Below, piece after piece: positions 41,697 through 48,660 of a DNA stretch of 64,000 nucleotides; positions within the stretch are counted from its first letter, which is position 1; each line of letters opens with the position of its first letter. Location of the stretch: assembly GCF_038630985.1 (NCBI RefSeq), contig NZ_CP152049.1, forward strand, positions 6,997,501 to 7,061,500. Reading direction: 5' to 3'. Under the pieces are notes generated by a model that saw only the letters and a list, made by a program, of their open reading frames with translations, was not told the origin of the DNA and searched no databases. Source of the stretch: Paenibacillus sp. FSL H8-0548. Lineage in GTDB: Bacteria > Bacillota > Bacilli > Paenibacillales > Paenibacillaceae. Made by a program: the position numbers and the translations under genes.

Positions 41697-42506
41697 CTAG
41701 CTCGACAATGCAAATTTCAACACTCTGCTAAGGGCTGCTGGCAGCACACTCACATGTCCTTCTTCCGGAAACTTCACCAGTTTCGAATAAAAGCCTTTGG
41801 CTGCGAGCGGCTTTAAGCTTTCAGCCAGCTGCTCGGAATCCATCACCATATCCGGAAGCTCATCCGCACCGATGGTAATCATGAGCCTTGGCAGCGTATC
41901 GACATGAAGCTCCATCGCTTCAAAGCTTGCTTTCTCCTCCAGCACTGCATGACCATTCCACCAGATAGAGGGACTTCCCGCTACAAAATTTTGAAATGAC
42001 TGCGGACGGTTGAATAAGGCATGAAGAACAAACAACCCTCCTAGAGAGTGCCCAAAAATTGTTTGTCGATTTTTATCAATCGGGTAGTCCTTCTCAATCT
42101 CAGGCATGAGCTCCGCCTCAATAAAGTCAAGAAAGAGATCAGCTCCGCCATGTTCCGGCCATGCCTGTCCATTAGGGCGAACAGGCAGCTTCTCCACCTG
42201 CGCAGGCATGGTGAAGTCATAGCAGCGCCGATCCATATCAAAGGGCTCCCTTGATGGATAGCCAATACCCACGATAACGACAGGATCATAACCATGAGGC
42301 TTACGCGTCTGCAAGCGAGCCGCCTCAGCCAATGTATCAAATACGGCATCACCATCCAAAGCATAAATTATAGGGTAGCCTTGCGAGGGGGGAGCCTCTT
42401 TCGGTCTTGCAATCCTAATATGATACTCCAGCTGCTTATGACTCGAATATAAAATATACTCAACATTCCCGGTAATAGAGCCGCTTATCGATGTCTCCTT
42501 GCTCAT
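41697..42506 (-). CDS. Siderophore esterase-like alpha/beta hydrolase
   Basis: A 269-residue hydrolase of the Fes/IroE/BesA type that would open iron-loaded siderophores. The nucleophile elbow is FGHSLGGLFVLHALF, and the fold has YPIIYALDGDAVF near the start and the late KFPEEGHVSVLP with the catalytic His. Start: ATG overlapping the TGA of the upstream siderophore-binding protein (ATGA), so the pair is coupled. It shares Fur control with that gene. Confidence 0.9.
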   Translation of the reverse strand: MSKETSISGSITGNVEYILYSSHKQLEYHIRIARPKEAPPSQGYPIIYALDGDAVFDTLAEAARLQTRKPHGYDPVVIVGIGYPSREPFDMDRRCYDFTMPAQVEKLPVRPNGQAWPEHGGADLFLDFIEAELMPEIEKDYPIDKNRQTIFGHSLGGLFVLHALFNRPQSFQNFVAGSPSIWWNGHAVLEEKASFEAMELHVDTLPRLMITIGADELPDMVMDSEQLAESLKPLAAKGFYSKLVKFPEEGHVSVLPAALSRVLKFALSS

Positions 42507-43519
42507 GGTGCTAGAAGCGCGACAACATCATCAATCATTTTGCCATAAGCAATCAGTCCGCTGCCTGTCCAGTATTGATCACTGACTTCAAATACATTTT
42601 CATTTTTAGCAGCAGGCATGCTTTTCCAGATCGCATTATCCGTTAGCTCCATAATGTTTGCCGTACCAGTACCCCCGTAATTAATGGTAAAAATAAAGTC
42701 GGCATCCAAATCAGGAAGAATTTCTAAAGATGCATCTAAACTGTTCGCCGTTTCTAACAGCTTGCTTTTGCCAATTCCAAGCTCATGTGAGAGAACATAG
42801 CCTCCGAAATAATTACCGCCAATTAGGTACATGCCTTTTCCGTTAAAATTAATTAATACTGCGTTTTTCCCATCTACGACAGGTGCGAGCTTAGCTTTGG
42901 CCTCTTCTTTCTTTTGCTCGTATGCACTCAGAGCATTAACCGCTTCTTCAGGCTTGCCAAGCAGCTCACCAAGCTTTGTAATGGAGCTTTCCAGATCGCC
43001 GGCAGCATTATTAAACACATAGGTTGGTGCAATTTTCGAATAATTCTCGTAAACGCCGTTCTCAGCATAAAATGCGTTATGCAAAATAATCAAATCAGGC
43101 TCAAACGCCATTACCACCTCAGGGGATGGCGGCAGACCGCCGGCAAAATTGGCTAACGGCACATCCTGGAGCTGATCCTGCAAATACTTCTGTCCTACTC
43201 CCCCGTCAGCCCATTGCACCACAGGCTTAACGCCTATACTAAGTAGAGAATCCTCCATATAAGGAGCAAATACCTTTAAAGGCTTGGCTGGTATTGTGAG
43301 TTCATGATCTTGCTCATCAATGACGACCTTAGTCGACGGCTCTTCTTGGACCTCTACTGCCGCAGTTTCTACTGGGGCTATGGTCTCCTCTGCAGGTCCA
43401 ACATCATGACCAGCATTGGAACCGCAGGCAGAAAGCAGACTAACGGTCATTACAACCAAAAGTAATATAAGACTGCTTTTTTTCAGTAATTTTAAATACG
43501 GGTACGATTTTTGAAACAT
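42503..43519 (-). CDS. Iron-siderophore ABC importer, binding lipoprotein
   Basis: A 338-residue FepB/FhuD-type binding protein. The lipoprotein signal ends in SLLSACGS. The mature chain shows the two-lobe pattern PEVVMAFEPDLIILHNAFYA and LEILPDLDADFIFTINYGG. Start: ATG 43519 after AGGAGGAG. A Fur box lies just upstream. No permease or ATPase genes are present here, so it must use a shared transporter. Confidence 0.92.
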   Translation of the reverse strand: MFQKSYPYLKLLKKSSLILLLVVMTVSLLSACGSNAGHDVGPAEETIAPVETAAVEVQEEPSTKVVIDEQDHELTIPAKPLKVFAPYMEDSLLSIGVKPVVQWADGGVGQKYLQDQLQDVPLANFAGGLPPSPEVVMAFEPDLIILHNAFYAENGVYENYSKIAPTYVFNNAAGDLESSITKLGELLGKPEEAVNALSAYEQKKEEAKAKLAPVVDGKNAVLINFNGKGMYLIGGNYFGGYVLSHELGIGKSKLLETANSLDASLEILPDLDADFIFTINYGGTGTANIMELTDNAIWKSMPAAKNENVFEVSDQYWTGSGLIAYGKMIDDVVALLAP

Positions 43520-43536
43520 AAAAAAATCTCCTCCTG

Positions 43537-43551
43537 TGATAATTATTCTCA
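43537..43551 (-). promoter_or_regulatory. Fur box before the siderophore-binding protein gene
   Basis: TGAGAATAATTATCA matches the Fur consensus TGATAATNATTATCA at all but one position, placed between the AraC regulator stop and the start at 43519. Confidence 0.8.
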
Positions 43552-43561
43552 TTTAGGAAGA

Positions 43562-44764
43562 TTATAATGGATGCGCCTCGGAGTCTCCATGCATTTTATC
43601 CATATCCATATTTGGACAATGTCCTGTTAACAGCAGCAGCATTTCATCCAGCATACGATTAGCCGCAACCGCCGAAGATTCGCACCACGGGTCAGATGGA
43701 ACAACATAGACATTGCCTTTTTGCACCGCTTTAAGGAAACGCCAGCTCTTATCATGCTGAAGAGATAACCAATACGCCCGCGACTCTGCCTCCGGACAAA
43801 CCAAAAGAATAAACCGATCAGCATCAAGCTCATTCAACTGCTCCAACGTGATCAGCTGATTGTACAGTGACTCCTCCGCATAGGCGGAAGAAAGCTTCAG
43901 ATCACGATATAATACGCCTTGAATAGCATGATTGCAGTATAAATGGAGCCCTTGGCCATACACGCGAAGAACGACAAAGGTATCCTCCCCTATCGTCTGC
44001 TGCATCTGCTTTCGAGCCAGTTCCAGCTTCTGTTCATAACCTTCAATCCAGGCTGTAGCTTGCTTTTCCCGTTCTACAAATACAGCGATCTGATAGAGCT
44101 GCTCTCTCCAGCCTGTTCCCGAGACCTCTACAAATAGCGAAGGCGCAATGCTGCTAAGCCTCTGCTTTTCTTCCTCCTGCAAATATCCGAAGCCCACAAT
44201 CGCATCCGGTCGGCTCTTAATGAGCTTATCTGATTCCTCCAAGCTTTGCGCATCCCCATAGCTCATATGAACCTTGATTTTCGTTTGATAAACATTGTAG
44301 TAATAAGGAGTCCACTTCGAGTCGAGCGGTGCTGCAACTGGAATGATGTTAAGCGCTAGAAGCTGACCAATAATCGAAGGTGAGCAAGCCGCAATACGCT
44401 TTCGCGGATGCTTGACGAATGCGGAGGGCGATACTCCAACCTCTTTCTTGAACTTCCGGCTAAAATAAAACTCATCGCTATATCCGACCCTCTGAGCAAT
44501 CTCCCTCAGCCGATATTCCGTCTCAATTAAATATCTTTTCGCCCGGTTAATGCGCAGATCCGTCAAGAAGTCCATCGCACTTTGACCATAGGTTTTCGTA
44601 AACAGGTCAACGAAATATTTTGGACTAATATTCGCCATCGCAGCCAGTTGTTCAACAGACAGCTGCTCGTTAAAATGCTGCTCCATAAACACCCGAATTT
44701 CAAACAAATCAGTCTTAGGCTGCCGAGCCTTCTCTGTTTTCGAATGATTCCGTTCCCAATGCAT
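43562..44764 (-). CDS. AraC-family regulator fused to a siderophore-binding-like domain
   Basis: A 400-residue regulator related in design to the one at 2364, but lacking its N-terminal cupin part: the AraC helix-turn-helix begins at about residue 22 (LAAMANISPKYFVDLFTKTY and VGYSDEFYFSRKFKKEVG). The binding domain follows (ACSPSIIGQLLALNIIPVAA, SRPDAIVGFGYLQEEEK). Start: ATG after GGGGG. It is the first gene of the iron operon, with a Fur box in front and another behind. It probably activates the operon when the matching siderophore is present. Confidence 0.9.
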   Translation of the reverse strand: MHWERNHSKTEKARQPKTDLFEIRVFMEQHFNEQLSVEQLAAMANISPKYFVDLFTKTYGQSAMDFLTDLRINRAKRYLIETEYRLREIAQRVGYSDEFYFSRKFKKEVGVSPSAFVKHPRKRIAACSPSIIGQLLALNIIPVAAPLDSKWTPYYYNVYQTKIKVHMSYGDAQSLEESDKLIKSRPDAIVGFGYLQEEEKQRLSSIAPSLFVEVSGTGWREQLYQIAVFVEREKQATAWIEGYEQKLELARKQMQQTIGEDTFVVLRVYGQGLHLYCNHAIQGVLYRDLKLSSAYAEESLYNQLITLEQLNELDADRFILLVCPEAESRAYWLSLQHDKSWRFLKAVQKGNVYVVPSDPWCESSAVAANRMLDEMLLLLTGHCPNMDMDKMHGDSEAHPL

Positions 44765-44846
44765 CACATACCCCCTAAGCCTATTCCATCCGATCTGTCC
44801 ATTCTGAATAATTTCCTTATAACAACTTCATACATTATATCATCAT

Positions 44847-45807: not shown

Positions 45808-46632
45808 TTAGACGCTGCCCCCGAGTGCGACCTCCACCTTGGGCGCGTACACTTTTTTGGCTAGATAGGATTGCGCAATCATAAAGATACCGCCCGCCAC
45901 CCAGTACAACGAAATAGCTGCAGGTGCCGATAAGGCGAACACGCCCATGAGAACCGGTGACAAATATCCCATGAAAGCAAGCTGCTTCTGCTGAGCCGCA
46001 TTTGCGTTTGGCTGCGCTGTTTGCGATACCTTGAACTGCACAAAATAAACGAGCGCCGCGATGATCGGAAGCACAATATCAGGCGAGCCCAGCTTGAACC
46101 AAAGGAAAGAATGATCCGCCAGCTCGGGGGTCAGCTTAATGGCTGAATATAGACCCATCAATATTGGCATTTGAATGAGCATCGGCAAGCAGCCAATGGC
46201 AAGCGGATTGACCTTATGCTTCTGATAAAGCTGCATCGTTTCCTGCTGAAGCTTCTGCTTGGAATCTGCATCTGACTTGTTCTTATATTTGTCTTGAAGC
46301 TGCTTAAGCTCGGGCTGAAGTATTGCCATCTTTGTCTTCATCTGACTTTGCGAGCGATACTGGCGCATCATAAGCGGCAGCAGCAACAGACGGATAATCA
46401 GGGTAATGCCGATAATCGCAAAACCATAATTACCATGGAACATATCTGCCAAATACTGAAGAACCGCAGATAACGGATAGATCACATAATGATTGAATAC
46501 CCCTGGTGTATTTCCATCGATCGTACCGCTAGCGGTACTGCAGCCGCTTACTAGAAGCAGGCCTGCCAGCATCATGCCGGCCAATAACAGTCGTCCATAT
46601 TTTAATGAAGGGAATACATTGCTCGGTTGCAT
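45808..46632 (-). CDS. yidC: Membrane protein insertase YidC (YidC2/MisCB type)
   Basis: A 274-residue insertase. The lipoprotein signal ends in LLLVSGCSTA. Five membrane segments follow, with the conserved Arg in GITLIIRLLLLPLMMRQYRS (the hydrophilic groove) and a charged cytoplasmic loop (LQPELKQLQDKYKN). Start: ATG 46632 after GAGGAGGA. That ribosome-binding site is part of a 10-bp hairpin inside the overlapping upstream ORF, as in Bacillus subtilis yidC2 (yqjG), where the MifM arrest peptide controls translation. This supports calling it the inducible paralogue. Confidence 0.93.
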   Translation of the reverse strand: MQPSNVFPSLKYGRLLLAGMMLAGLLLVSGCSTASGTIDGNTPGVFNHYVIYPLSAVLQYLADMFHGNYGFAIIGITLIIRLLLLPLMMRQYRSQSQMKTKMAILQPELKQLQDKYKNKSDADSKQKLQQETMQLYQKHKVNPLAIGCLPMLIQMPILMGLYSAIKLTPELADHSFLWFKLGSPDIVLPIIAALVYFVQFKVSQTAQPNANAAQQKQLAFMGYLSPVLMGVFALSAPAAISLYWVAGGIFMIAQSYLAKKVYAPKVEVALGGSV

Positions 46633-46925
46633 AAAAATCCTCCTCGTTTGTTTGAAAATAGCGCTACAAACGAGGCGGAGCAGTCTGCTATGTCGTCATC
46701 CGGCGATTCCTTTCGCTTAACCTTCCTTACCAGCCAGTGCCGCAGTGGAACAGTGCGTAACAGCACCTGCGGCAATGCAATATACAATATACTTACAACC
46801 CTGTGCCGTTCCCAATACTCATAGGCTCCTGAATGCAAATGTGCAGCATAGGCGTAAGCCAAGGAGCATAACAAGCTAATCGAAATCAAATACGGTATAA
46901 TGTCATGCAGCTCAAACTCAAACAA
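46602..46925 (-). CDS. MifM-like translation-arrest peptide controlling yidC
   Basis: About 107 residues from TTG 46925, eight bases after GGGAGG. It has a membrane segment at 9-28 and a second hydrophobic stretch at 43-58. It then carries residues 64-81, WLVRKVKRKESPDDDIAD, which line up with the Bacillus subtilis MifM arrest region as remembered (WIRKVFRMNSPVNDEED): the W, RKV, SP and acidic run are shared, with one extra residue. Unlike MifM, the frame continues 26 residues further and overlaps yidC by 31 bases. A hairpin covering the yidC ribosome-binding site starts one codon after the acidic run, so a stalled ribosome would open it. MifM monitors membrane insertion; the same role is inferred here. 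Confidence 0.72.
   Translation of the reverse strand: MFEFELHDIIPYLISISLLCSLAYAYAAHLHSGAYEYWERHRVVSILYIALPQVLLRTVPLRHWLVRKVKRKESPDDDIADCSASFVALFSNKRGGFLCNRAMYSLH
46639..46679 (-). promoter_or_regulatory. Hairpin sequestering the yidC ribosome-binding site
   Basis: On the minus strand CCTCGTTTGT and ACAAACGAGG form a perfect 10-bp stem. The 3' arm includes the GAGG of the yidC site GAGGAGGA, so the site is closed unless a ribosome occupies the 5' arm. Confidence 0.75.
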
Positions 46926-46982
46926 TGTATTCACCTCCCTTCCTTGCATTAATAATCAAAATACTTTTCATTCTATTTGGTT

Positions 46983-46991
46983 ATTATATCA
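46983..46991 (-). promoter_or_regulatory. Extended -10 promoter of the mifM-like/yidC unit
   Basis: TGATATAAT on the minus strand is a perfect extended -10 element about 58 bases before the TTG start; no strong -35 was found at normal spacing. Confidence 0.5.
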
Positions 46992-47056
46992 GTAATTCTG
47001 TTCTAATTACGAGTACAACCATCACAAATATGTTACAGCTCTAATTTAGTTGGTTA

Positions 47057-47086
47057 TTTACAAATAGATGGTGAACAACATATACT
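47057..47086 (+). promoter_or_regulatory. Promoter of the amino-acid importer
   Basis: TTTACA, 18 bases and TATACT lie about 75 bp before the start codon at 47161. Confidence 0.5.
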
Positions 47087-47160
47087 TTCTAGGTTGCATT
47101 GGCCGATAGACAGCCGCATTTCAGTGCAATGAACAATCAACTTAGAAGAAAGAGGATCTC

Positions 47161-48660
47161 ATGAAACGAAAAAAGTTACATCTCATCTATTTGCCGCTCA
47201 TCGCCTTGATCATCCTGCTTCTTTCCCTAGGGCAGGCACTCCCATTTAACATAGAAAGCTCCTATTCTGTCCACGCAGAAAGTACAGCTGCTGCAGCGGT
47301 AGAGGGACAAAAAAAGAAGCTAGTCATGGGAACCTCAGCCGATTACCCTCCATACGAGAGCGTAGATGCCAAGAGCAGCGGTGAAATCGTCGGACTAGAT
47401 CTCGATATTGCCAAGTATATCACCAGCCAGCTCGGTTATGAACTGGAAATCGCAAACATGGATTTCAATGGTCTTATTGCATCCCTCCAAACCGGACGCG
47501 TCGATTTCGTTATGTCTGCCATGTCCGCTACGGATGAACGCAGGCAAAATGTCGACTTCTCCGATACCTATTATGCTGCACGCAATACCATTGTCTCCAA
47601 AAAATCCGCACCGCTGGAAACAGAAAACTCTCTTTCCGGCAAAAAGGTAGGTACCCAGCTTGGCTCCACGCAGGATTTATATGCGCAAACCATCGAAGGT
47701 GCCGTCCTCAAGAAGCTCAATAAAATTCCTGATCTTATTCAAGAGCTGGGCTCCGGACGTATTGACGCCGCTATCGTTGAGGATGCCGTTGCGATCGAGA
47801 TGACAAGCCTTAACCCAGATCTGGTCATGAACTTTCTGCCAGCAGAGTCTGCCGATAATGGCTATGCCATAGCATTTCCTAAGCAATCAACGATCGTGAA
47901 TCAGTTCAATGGCGTGCTTGCAGAGATGAAAGCAAACGGCGAGCTTGATCGAATCGTACAAAAATGGTTTCCTGACGGAAGCTCAAAGTCTAGTTCCGGT
48001 CTGAACATCGACTTCAGCATTTTAAAGGACTATATCCCTTATATTTTGAAAGGCGTCTACGTAACCCTGCTCTTCACACTAGTTTCCGCACTATTCGGAC
48101 TAGTATGGGGAACGGTATTGTCGCTGTTCAAGATTTCCGGTGTAAAGCCGCTCGAGTGGTTCGCGACCGCCTATACCTCTATTTTTCGCGGAACGCCGCT
48201 GCTCGTCCAGCTAACGATTATTTATTATGCAACACCGCAGCTGTTTCATTATGATATTCCTGCGCTGATGGCTGCTGGCCTTGCCTTTGGCCTCAACTCC
48301 GCCGCTTATTTGTCTGAAACGATTCGCGGCGGCATTATGGCCGTCGATAAGGGGCAGCGCGAGGCTGCTGTCGCGCTCGGGATTCCGTATCGCACGATGA
48401 TGCTGCGCATCATTTTCCCACAGGCGCTTCGTACGATTTTGCCAGCACTTGTTAACGAATGTGTCGCTTTGCTGAAGGAGTCCTCACTCGTATCCGTCAT
48501 TGGTGTCGCCGATCTAATGCGCCGCGCAGATGTCGTACGTTCCGACACATTCCGCTCCATTGAGGTGCTGCTGTTTATTGCCGCTATTTATTACGTGCTC
48601 GTGCTTATCTTAACTTCAATTGCTCGTAGACTTGAAAGGAGGCTGCGCCGCAGTGATTAA
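47161..48660 (+). CDS. Amino-acid ABC importer: fused substrate-binding protein and permease
   Basis: A 499-residue fusion. After a signal-anchor (residues 8-27) comes a family 3 binding domain (about 52-275; MGTSADYPPYESVDAKSSGE, GLDLDIAKYI, DFVMSAMSATDERRQNVDFS). A HisM/GlnP-type permease follows (about 290-495; RGTPLLVQLTIIYYATPQL and the EAA loop GQREAAVALGIPYRTMMLRI). In this arrangement the binding domain is tethered to the transporter. Start: ATG after AGAAAGAGG. The next gene supplies the ATPase. Confidence 0.93.
   Translation: MKRKKLHLIYLPLIALIILLLSLGQALPFNIESSYSVHAESTAAAAVEGQKKKLVMGTSADYPPYESVDAKSSGEIVGLDLDIAKYITSQLGYELEIANMDFNGLIASLQTGRVDFVMSAMSATDERRQNVDFSDTYYAARNTIVSKKSAPLETENSLSGKKVGTQLGSTQDLYAQTIEGAVLKKLNKIPDLIQELGSGRIDAAIVEDAVAIEMTSLNPDLVMNFLPAESADNGYAIAFPKQSTIVNQFNGVLAEMKANGELDRIVQKWFPDGSSKSSSGLNIDFSILKDYIPYILKGVYVTLLFTLVSALFGLVWGTVLSLFKISGVKPLEWFATAYTSIFRGTPLLVQLTIIYYATPQLFHYDIPALMAAGLAFGLNSAAYLSETIRGGIMAVDKGQREAAVALGIPYRTMMLRIIFPQALRTILPALVNECVALLKESSLVSVIGVADLMRRADVVRSDTFRSIEVLLFIAAIYYVLVLILTSIARRLERRLRRSD

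Follow-up and report, generated by a model that had tools for sequence, protein, structure and literature searches.

A probable MifM-type upstream open reading frame and a Shine-Dalgarno-masking hairpin ahead of yidC2 in Paenibacillaceae

In Paenibacillus sp. FSL H8-0548, a small open reading frame (ORF) lies directly in front of a secondary yidC gene and runs into it, which raises the question of whether this insertase is controlled by a nascent peptide, as in the MifM-YidC2 system of Bacillus subtilis. The stretch of DNA analysed, referred to here as the window, consisted of 64,000 nt of contig NZ_CP152049.1. The yidC2 gene (45808–46632, minus strand) encodes a secondary YidC/Oxa1 insertase with a lipoprotein-type signal, and both Pfam and NCBIfam assigned its product to YidC/Oxa1 (PF02096, 2.2e-49; TIGR03592, 5.2e-57). 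The genome contains two yidC genes; the other copy is 42% identical and is located approximately 0.3 Mb away, close to the contig end. Among named genomes, close relatives of yidC2 were found in Paenibacillus species, P. endophyticus, P. luteus, and P. harenae among them. The mifM-like upstream ORF (46602–46925, minus strand) consists of 107 codons and a stop codon (46604–46602), and its 31-nt overlap with the 5' end of yidC2 and its 26-residue C-terminal tail were both as given in the original prediction. Divergent from the ORF, a gene at 47161–48660 (plus strand) encodes one protein in which a family 3 solute-binding domain (PF00497) is combined with a transporter membrane domain (PF00528), and an ABC ATPase gene comes next after it. 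A possible iron-uptake cluster occupies 41697–44767 (minus strand), with an AraC-type regulator that carries a fused periplasmic-binding domain (43562–44767), a second periplasmic-binding protein (42503–43552), and a putative esterase (41697–42506). A promoter scan of positions 46900–47170 returned one plus-strand site, against 1.1 expected, and no minus-strand site.

The ORF had been proposed to begin at a TTG with a good ribosome-binding site. This start could be confirmed, as TTG was kept in 19 of 19 compared loci, the window's included, and a Shine-Dalgarno (SD) site, GGGAGGTGA, could be read from the sequence at 46931–46939 (minus strand). TTG was also the commonest inferred start in the family (86 of 111 loci), where start codons were picked by SD score. 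An in-frame ATG at 46949, eight codons upstream of the TTG, has no visible SD of its own, so automatic annotation may pick the wrong start for this ORF. The relatives of the ORF, among the matches listed, were named only as 'hypothetical' or 'uncharacterized' proteins. Searches of Pfam, NCBIfam, and PHROGs matched no family, by which a known protein family was rejected, and a sequence search of the PDB returned nothing at E up to 10. A known RNA family was likewise rejected, since the Rfam search of the locus gave no match at E up to 1.

The distribution of the ORF was evaluated in 197 genomes spread evenly over the family Paenibacillaceae, of which 115 carried a yidC2-type gene (best bit scores of at least 236; the next value was 192). 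A search with the single sequence recovered the ORF in 101 of these 115 genomes, and in only 2 of the 82 genomes without yidC2 was an ORF-like match obtained (E 0.005 and 0.009), both containing stop codons. An iterated profile, which scanned ORFs that had 55 codons or more and whose ends fell within -260 to +200 nt of the aligned yidC2 start, placed the ORF directly upstream of yidC2 and on the same strand in 114 of 115 genomes, a count that depends on kinship, as do all the family counts here, since the genomes are related. A chance ORF was rejected on this basis. In the sole exception, genome G164, yidC2 is preceded by a DDE transposase, and an ORF match sits approximately 0.9 kb from the end of another contig. 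Three of the 114 ORFs, without an SD-supported start, were left out of the alignment (G154, G202, and G089; n = 111). The set for stop positions excluded G197 and G208, where the motif was missed by the search pattern (n = 112), the set for spacing additionally excluded G079, where the yidC start was miscalled (n = 111), and motif residues were counted in the 110 of 111 ORFs in which the motif could be located.

Simple hydropathy and charge counts, in place of a dedicated topology predictor, revealed a predicted N-terminal membrane segment at residues ~9–27 (46845–46901, minus strand) with a hydropathy of 1.75, an acidic N-tail, and a basic C-side, indicating an N-out/C-in orientation. Across the 111 family ORFs, the N-tail was negative in 100 and neutral in 11, the C-side was positive in 92, neutral in 4, and net negative in 15, and the hydropathy of the segment fell below 1.6 in 22; N-out/C-in is accordingly the orientation predicted for most of the family. 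The distance from the membrane segment to the proline of the motif described below was confined to 43–48 residues (5–95% range, 111 ORFs), being 47 in the window ORF compared to 52 in one B. subtilis-type MifM. An N-terminal membrane segment of apparent N-out/C-in orientation at a short, fixed spacing from the putative arrest site, as in MifM, was therefore a feature of the family by these counts.

The arrest-like segment, WLVRKVKRKESPDDDIAD, extends from W64 to D81 when the TTG is counted as codon 1, and its position at 46683–46736 (minus strand) was the one originally predicted. Its core in the window reads R71-K72-E73-S74-P75-D76-D77-D78. The alignment of 111 proteins gave R-x-[VI]-[RK]-R-[KR]-E-[AS]-P-D-[DE]-[DE]-x-x-D-C, within which the family-wide core motif is R-[KR]-E-[AS]-P-[DE]-[DE]-[DE]. 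The W-RKV motif to which arrest had been attributed did not hold across the family: a tryptophan near the usual place occurred in only 56 of 110 ORFs, whereas Arg was present at P-4 in 109, Glu or Asp at P-2 in 106, and Ala or Ser at P-1 in all 110. The literal B. subtilis arrest sequence RIxxWIxxxxxMNxxxxDEED is absent from the window ORF, which has no RI and no MN and in which the acidic run is shifted; the W, the Arg at P-4, the S-P, and the acidic residues are shared. That sequence is a species-level criterion which the published family screen, as far as its account goes, did not use. The MifM rule of the screen calls for an acidic stretch between residues 70 and 100 with a 5-residue charge below -0.3 (PMC10987492), and 102 of the 111 ORFs, including that of the window, satisfied it. 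The nine failing ORFs all belong to one genus (g14), and their starts may be called too late.

Selection along the ORF was assessed by Nei-Gojobori counts over all pairs of 19 loci, comprising the window and the 18 closest among 29 other loci; two of them (L040 and L041) encode an identical ORF protein, and all 19 carry the string KRKESP, which was used for locating the frame. The dN/dS ratio was 0.11 in the membrane region, 0.26 in the linker, 0.03 in W64–D81, and 0.96 in the tail. Synonymous sites within W64–D81 had diverged as elsewhere (pS 0.68), and the segment is therefore held as a peptide. The tail (residues 82–107; 46605–46682, minus strand) overlaps the hairpin, the SD, and the yidC start, and its dN/dS of 0.96 at a pS of only 0.20 showed that it is constrained as RNA, not as a peptide. 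The C-terminal extension described in the original prediction does span 26 residues in the window; as a functional peptide feature it was rejected, given this ratio and the 26 of 112 ORFs that stop before the yidC start. The remaining 86 ORFs extend beyond the yidC2 start (one being at the locus with the miscalled start), and with that locus set aside the stop falls between 36 nt ahead of the yidC2 start and 163 nt beyond it. The Pro-to-stop distance had a standard deviation of 47 (111 loci).

The mRNA hairpin masking the yidC2 SD could be recovered at this locus using RNAfold. Its 10-bp stem, with the 5' arm at 46666–46675 and the 3' arm at 46642–46651 (minus strand), was exactly the one proposed before, and three outer pairs (46679–46677 with 46640–46638) join it past one mismatch. 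The SD, AGGAGG, lies at 46639–46644 (minus strand), 59 nt downstream of the P75 codon, counted from its first base. It had been claimed to reside in the 3' arm; it is indeed masked, but only half of it falls in the 10-bp arm and the rest mostly in the extension. Likewise, a hairpin beginning one codon past the acidic run is true of the extended stem, whereas the bare 10-bp stem begins 7 nt past D81. The minimum free energy in the window was -21.8 kcal/mol (z -2.64; 3 of 200 shuffles were equally or more stable), and across the family the median z was -2.96, with values below -2 in 88 of 111 loci (20 shuffles per locus). An SD pairing probability above 0.5 did not discriminate, being seen in 109 of 111 loci against 84% of shuffles.

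Covariation was analysed in the 52 of 111 loci with a spacing of exactly 59, representing 45 distinct sequences, against 500 column shuffles, which ignore relatedness, and against partners slid by 1–3 nt, which corrects for relatedness in part. Both-sided compensatory cells numbered 52, compared to a shuffle mean of 14.6 (maximum 27) and at most 25 on sliding, and paired cells reached 86%, compared to a shuffle mean of 74% and at most 64% on sliding. Pairs with a both-sided change (8; shuffle maximum 8, slid up to 7) and extra pair types (20; shuffle maximum 20, slid up to 20) were not separated from the controls. The hairpin thus shows compensatory changes, with two of four measures separating it from the controls.

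The distance between motif and SD was nearly constant. The Pro-to-SD spacing was approximately 59 nt with a standard deviation of 2.8 (111 loci), and the bases that pair with the SD lie a median of 28 nt past the first base of the Pro codon (25–75%: 27–28.5). The same distance from the Pro-equivalent codon was 57–60 nt in four B. subtilis-type loci. When the equivalent codon was placed by hand in six other Bacilli loci, spacings of 56–62 in four and 47 in one were obtained, and one had no SD matching the search pattern. A ruler anchored on the Cys usually found at P+7 was tighter than one anchored on Pro (standard deviation 1.77 versus 2.41; 93 of 111 loci), which is only a hint, as a different offset occurs in just 10 loci, drawn from few lineages.

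A fixed motif-to-SD spacing beside a freely drifting stop codon suggests that what selection maintains is the place of a putatively stalled ribosome and not that of termination. This bears on plain translational coupling, in which ribosomes on the ORF would unfold the hairpin and finish close to the start of yidC2 without any arrest. Coupling through gene overlaps is common, and the overlap seen at most of these loci would suit it. However, the stop wanders from -36 to +163 nt around the yidC2 start while the spacing stays fixed, and coupling requires no invariant peptide motif such as the one conserved here at a dN/dS of 0.03, which leaves this explanation improbable.

The relationship to MifM itself was examined using four loci (L241–L244) with 60–95% identity to the YqjG query, whose upstream ORFs end in ...HRITTWIRKVFRMNSPVNDDEDASSLLL or similar. 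These ends closely fit the published MifM consensus RIxxWIxxxxxMNxxxxDEED (PMC7897499, PMC12992588), and the loci are taken here to be of B. subtilis type. In the first round of the profile built from Paenibacillaceae alone, the four MifM-type ORFs scored E 0.0013–0.021 against 0.075 for the best of the decoys (594 decoys and 95 reversed candidates), all E-values of these iterated-profile and decoy searches referring to small local sets. In the second round, two of the four passed 0.001 before inclusion, and all four did so after those two were added. The iterated HMM thereby ranked MifM ahead of every decoy, revealing a sequence relationship. Direct hhalign comparison with the four MifM sequences was weak (probability 3% and 23%); it aligned the two arrest segments. 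Outside the family, 12 of 13 checked profile matches precede a yidC gene and one (L220, E 0.026) does not, and several of the matches beyond these 13 (L214, L215, and weaker ones) are probably due to chance.

The two systems are alike in having an ORF before a secondary yidC, one N-terminal membrane segment, an SD-masking hairpin, a C-terminal segment that turns from basic to acidic and carries Arg at P-4 and S/A-P, and a motif-to-SD spacing of 57–60 nt in MifM versus about 59 nt in Paenibacillaceae. They differ in that M80 and N81 of MifM are replaced by K/R and E, the acidic run directly follows the Pro where that of MifM begins two residues later, and D-C often follows this run at P+6/P+7. 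Furthermore, the Paenibacillaceae ORF mostly crosses the SD into yidC2 (86 of 112), unlike the four B. subtilis-type ORFs, which end 29–36 nt before the aligned yidC2 start. Glu/Asp at P-2 in the place of Asn81 is the main molecular difference.

In all likelihood, the ORF encodes a MifM-family monitoring substrate that switches on yidC2 via a self-stalled ribosome. In the locus data this reading is based on the gene order, the conservation, the selection on the peptide, the compensatory hairpin, the fixed spacings, and the sequence link to MifM. The MifM-like reading of the original prediction held in the comparisons of position, membrane segment, peptide conservation, hairpin covariation, spacing, and the chain of profiles. 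When the upstream ORFs were aligned across Paenibacillaceae, the relatives kept both the core motif and the hairpin, the opposite of the outcome it had named as contrary. In the reported MifM cycle, stalling opens the hairpin and YidC2 is made, and insertion releases the stall (PMC6037786, PMC13183943). By analogy, the nascent chain here would have one N-terminal membrane segment requiring YidC-type insertion. When insertion is slow, the segment ending ...RKVKRKESPDDDIAD would hold the ribosome near its own end, where it would cover the 5' arm of the hairpin, freeing the yidC2 SD so that YidC2 is made. With prompt insertion, pulling on the chain would end the arrest, the ribosome would move on, and the hairpin would re-form, keeping yidC2 expression low. 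Three elements of this scheme are predictions taken over from MifM, namely the stall, its release through YidC, and the consequence for yidC2.

Another reading is an arrest peptide answering a different signal, such as a metabolite, an antibiotic, or Sec, instead of YidC-dependent insertion; the YidC signal is suggested only by the downstream gene. Against this, the target is the secondary yidC of a two-yidC genome, and the negative N-tail (100 of 111) and the 43–48 residue spacing match yidC-linked peptides including MifM, as these are described in PMC10987492; this alternative is considered very unlikely. An ORF product acting in trans, with regulation beyond cis, would suit the conserved membrane region (dN/dS 0.11) and the nearly inseparable ORF-yidC2 pair, but can be largely dismissed, since the most strongly constrained stretch keeps a set distance to the SD, the C-terminal tail drifts, and B. 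subtilis-type mifM, whose product is reported to act as a nascent chain (PMC6037786), shares the arrangement and the spacing.

Under the preferred reading of a MifM-family arrest peptide, a stall position can be predicted. Arg79 and Asn81 of MifM are reported to contact Arg66 of uL4 near A751, and replacement of Asn81 by Ala abolishes arrest (PMC4423224). If R71 at P-4 stands for Arg79, a P site 10–13 residues further on (mainly codons 89–92 in the MifM data) would fall on D81–A84, and the common Pro-to-SD spacing places it at the same codons. The leading edge of a ribosome lies approximately 16 nt from the P-site codon, so with P sites at D81–S83 it would reach about 46670–46664, over the 5' arm (46675–46666). 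A stall with the P site at D76–D78 would stop short of the 10-bp 5' arm, and D81–S83 is therefore regarded as the likeliest position, a correction to the original prediction. Met90 of uL22 is reported to modulate the species specificity of MifM (PMC4423224); the surrounding loop has the sequence RPRAMGRAS both in the window's genome and in the B. subtilis-type one, so the ribosome would pose no obvious obstacle to arrest. A contact between the P-2 Glu and uL4 Arg66 is offered as a proposal. It forms part of a bolder and rather doubtful version of the model, a two-way switch in which arrest would free the yidC2 SD and the released ribosome, passing through the SD and ~10 codons into yidC2, would briefly block initiation, giving tighter repression than the hairpin alone, with E73 at P-2 holding uL4 Arg66 in place of Asn81. 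If the E73-Arg66 contact is true, two lineages would reach the same stall by different contacts.

Among other Bacilli, ORFs annotated, for example in Peribacillus and Metabacillus, as 'hypothetical protein' occupy the same position before yidC2, with a hairpin over the SD in those folded. Several of them share an R-x-[DE]-x-[PG]-acidic core; they differ in their bridging motifs, such as RREGPEDDE, RKDGPDDDS, and RRYDAGDD. Many other Bacilli examined had no such ORF before the yidC2-type gene. None was seen at eight loci of family f13 (L257, L260, L263, L270, L274, L275, L276, and L281), where an ORF end resembling an AraC-type helix-turn-helix regulator, recognised by eye, was seen instead, which suggests a different control of the gene. 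Small ORFs at two further Bacilli loci, L272 (G549) and L292 (G391), end 59 and 84 nt short of the aligned yidC start, have an N-terminal hydrophobic stretch, and share similar C-terminal ends, KWRRQALPKLSDE and RWRIKCLSKMSDE. The MifM-type profile did not pick them up at E < 1, and they are possibly another arrest-peptide branch. At L248 and L249 (G550 and G406), ORFs reading ...LKRIKIKIDPGDEDSHFSP end 90–93 nt before the aligned yidC start; that of G550 scored E 0.55 and 0.25 in later profile rounds, among the decoys.

Two published systems outside the Bacilli also bear comparison. The arrest peptide CliM of Clostridia (formerly uC_KYxIW) resembles the present ORF in preceding a secondary yidC and in its SD hairpin, differs in its unrelated motif KYxIW, and is reported to monitor YidC; acidic residues near the PTC are described as needed by MifM and not by CliM (PMC13183943). 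ApcA of Actinobacteria is an arrest peptide encoded ahead of a presumed secondary yidC (PMC7897499), and differs in its RAPG-type motif (PMC10987492) and in belonging to another phylum.

In the published screen, 592 Firmicutes genomes yielded 572 MifM sequences, picked by the acidic stretch (PMC10987492). Since 102 of 111 ORFs satisfy its charge rule, some Paenibacillaceae ORFs are probably already among these sequences. Neither Paenibacillus nor Paenibacillaceae is mentioned in the main texts of PMC10987492, PMC7897499, PMC13183943, and PMC12992588, and a literature search, thin in subscription journals, found no paper on MifM, yidC arrest peptides, or monitoring substrates in Paenibacillus or Paenibacillaceae. 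The system can be regarded as a MifM-family member if that family is taken as broadly as in print, and as a variant with respect to motif and gene overlap, and the Paenibacillaceae form is most likely a distinct branch of the MifM system. In the cited papers, as far as their accounts go, the arrest requirements of MifM derive from B. subtilis. The 111 aligned natural variants separate features that are near-universal (Arg at P-4, E/D at P-2, A/S-P, three positions that are mostly acidic, a spacing of ~59 nt ahead of the SD, and 43–48 residues from the membrane segment) from those that B. subtilis happens to use (M80, N81, and RI), and this set yields direct and cheap predictions on what arrest requires.
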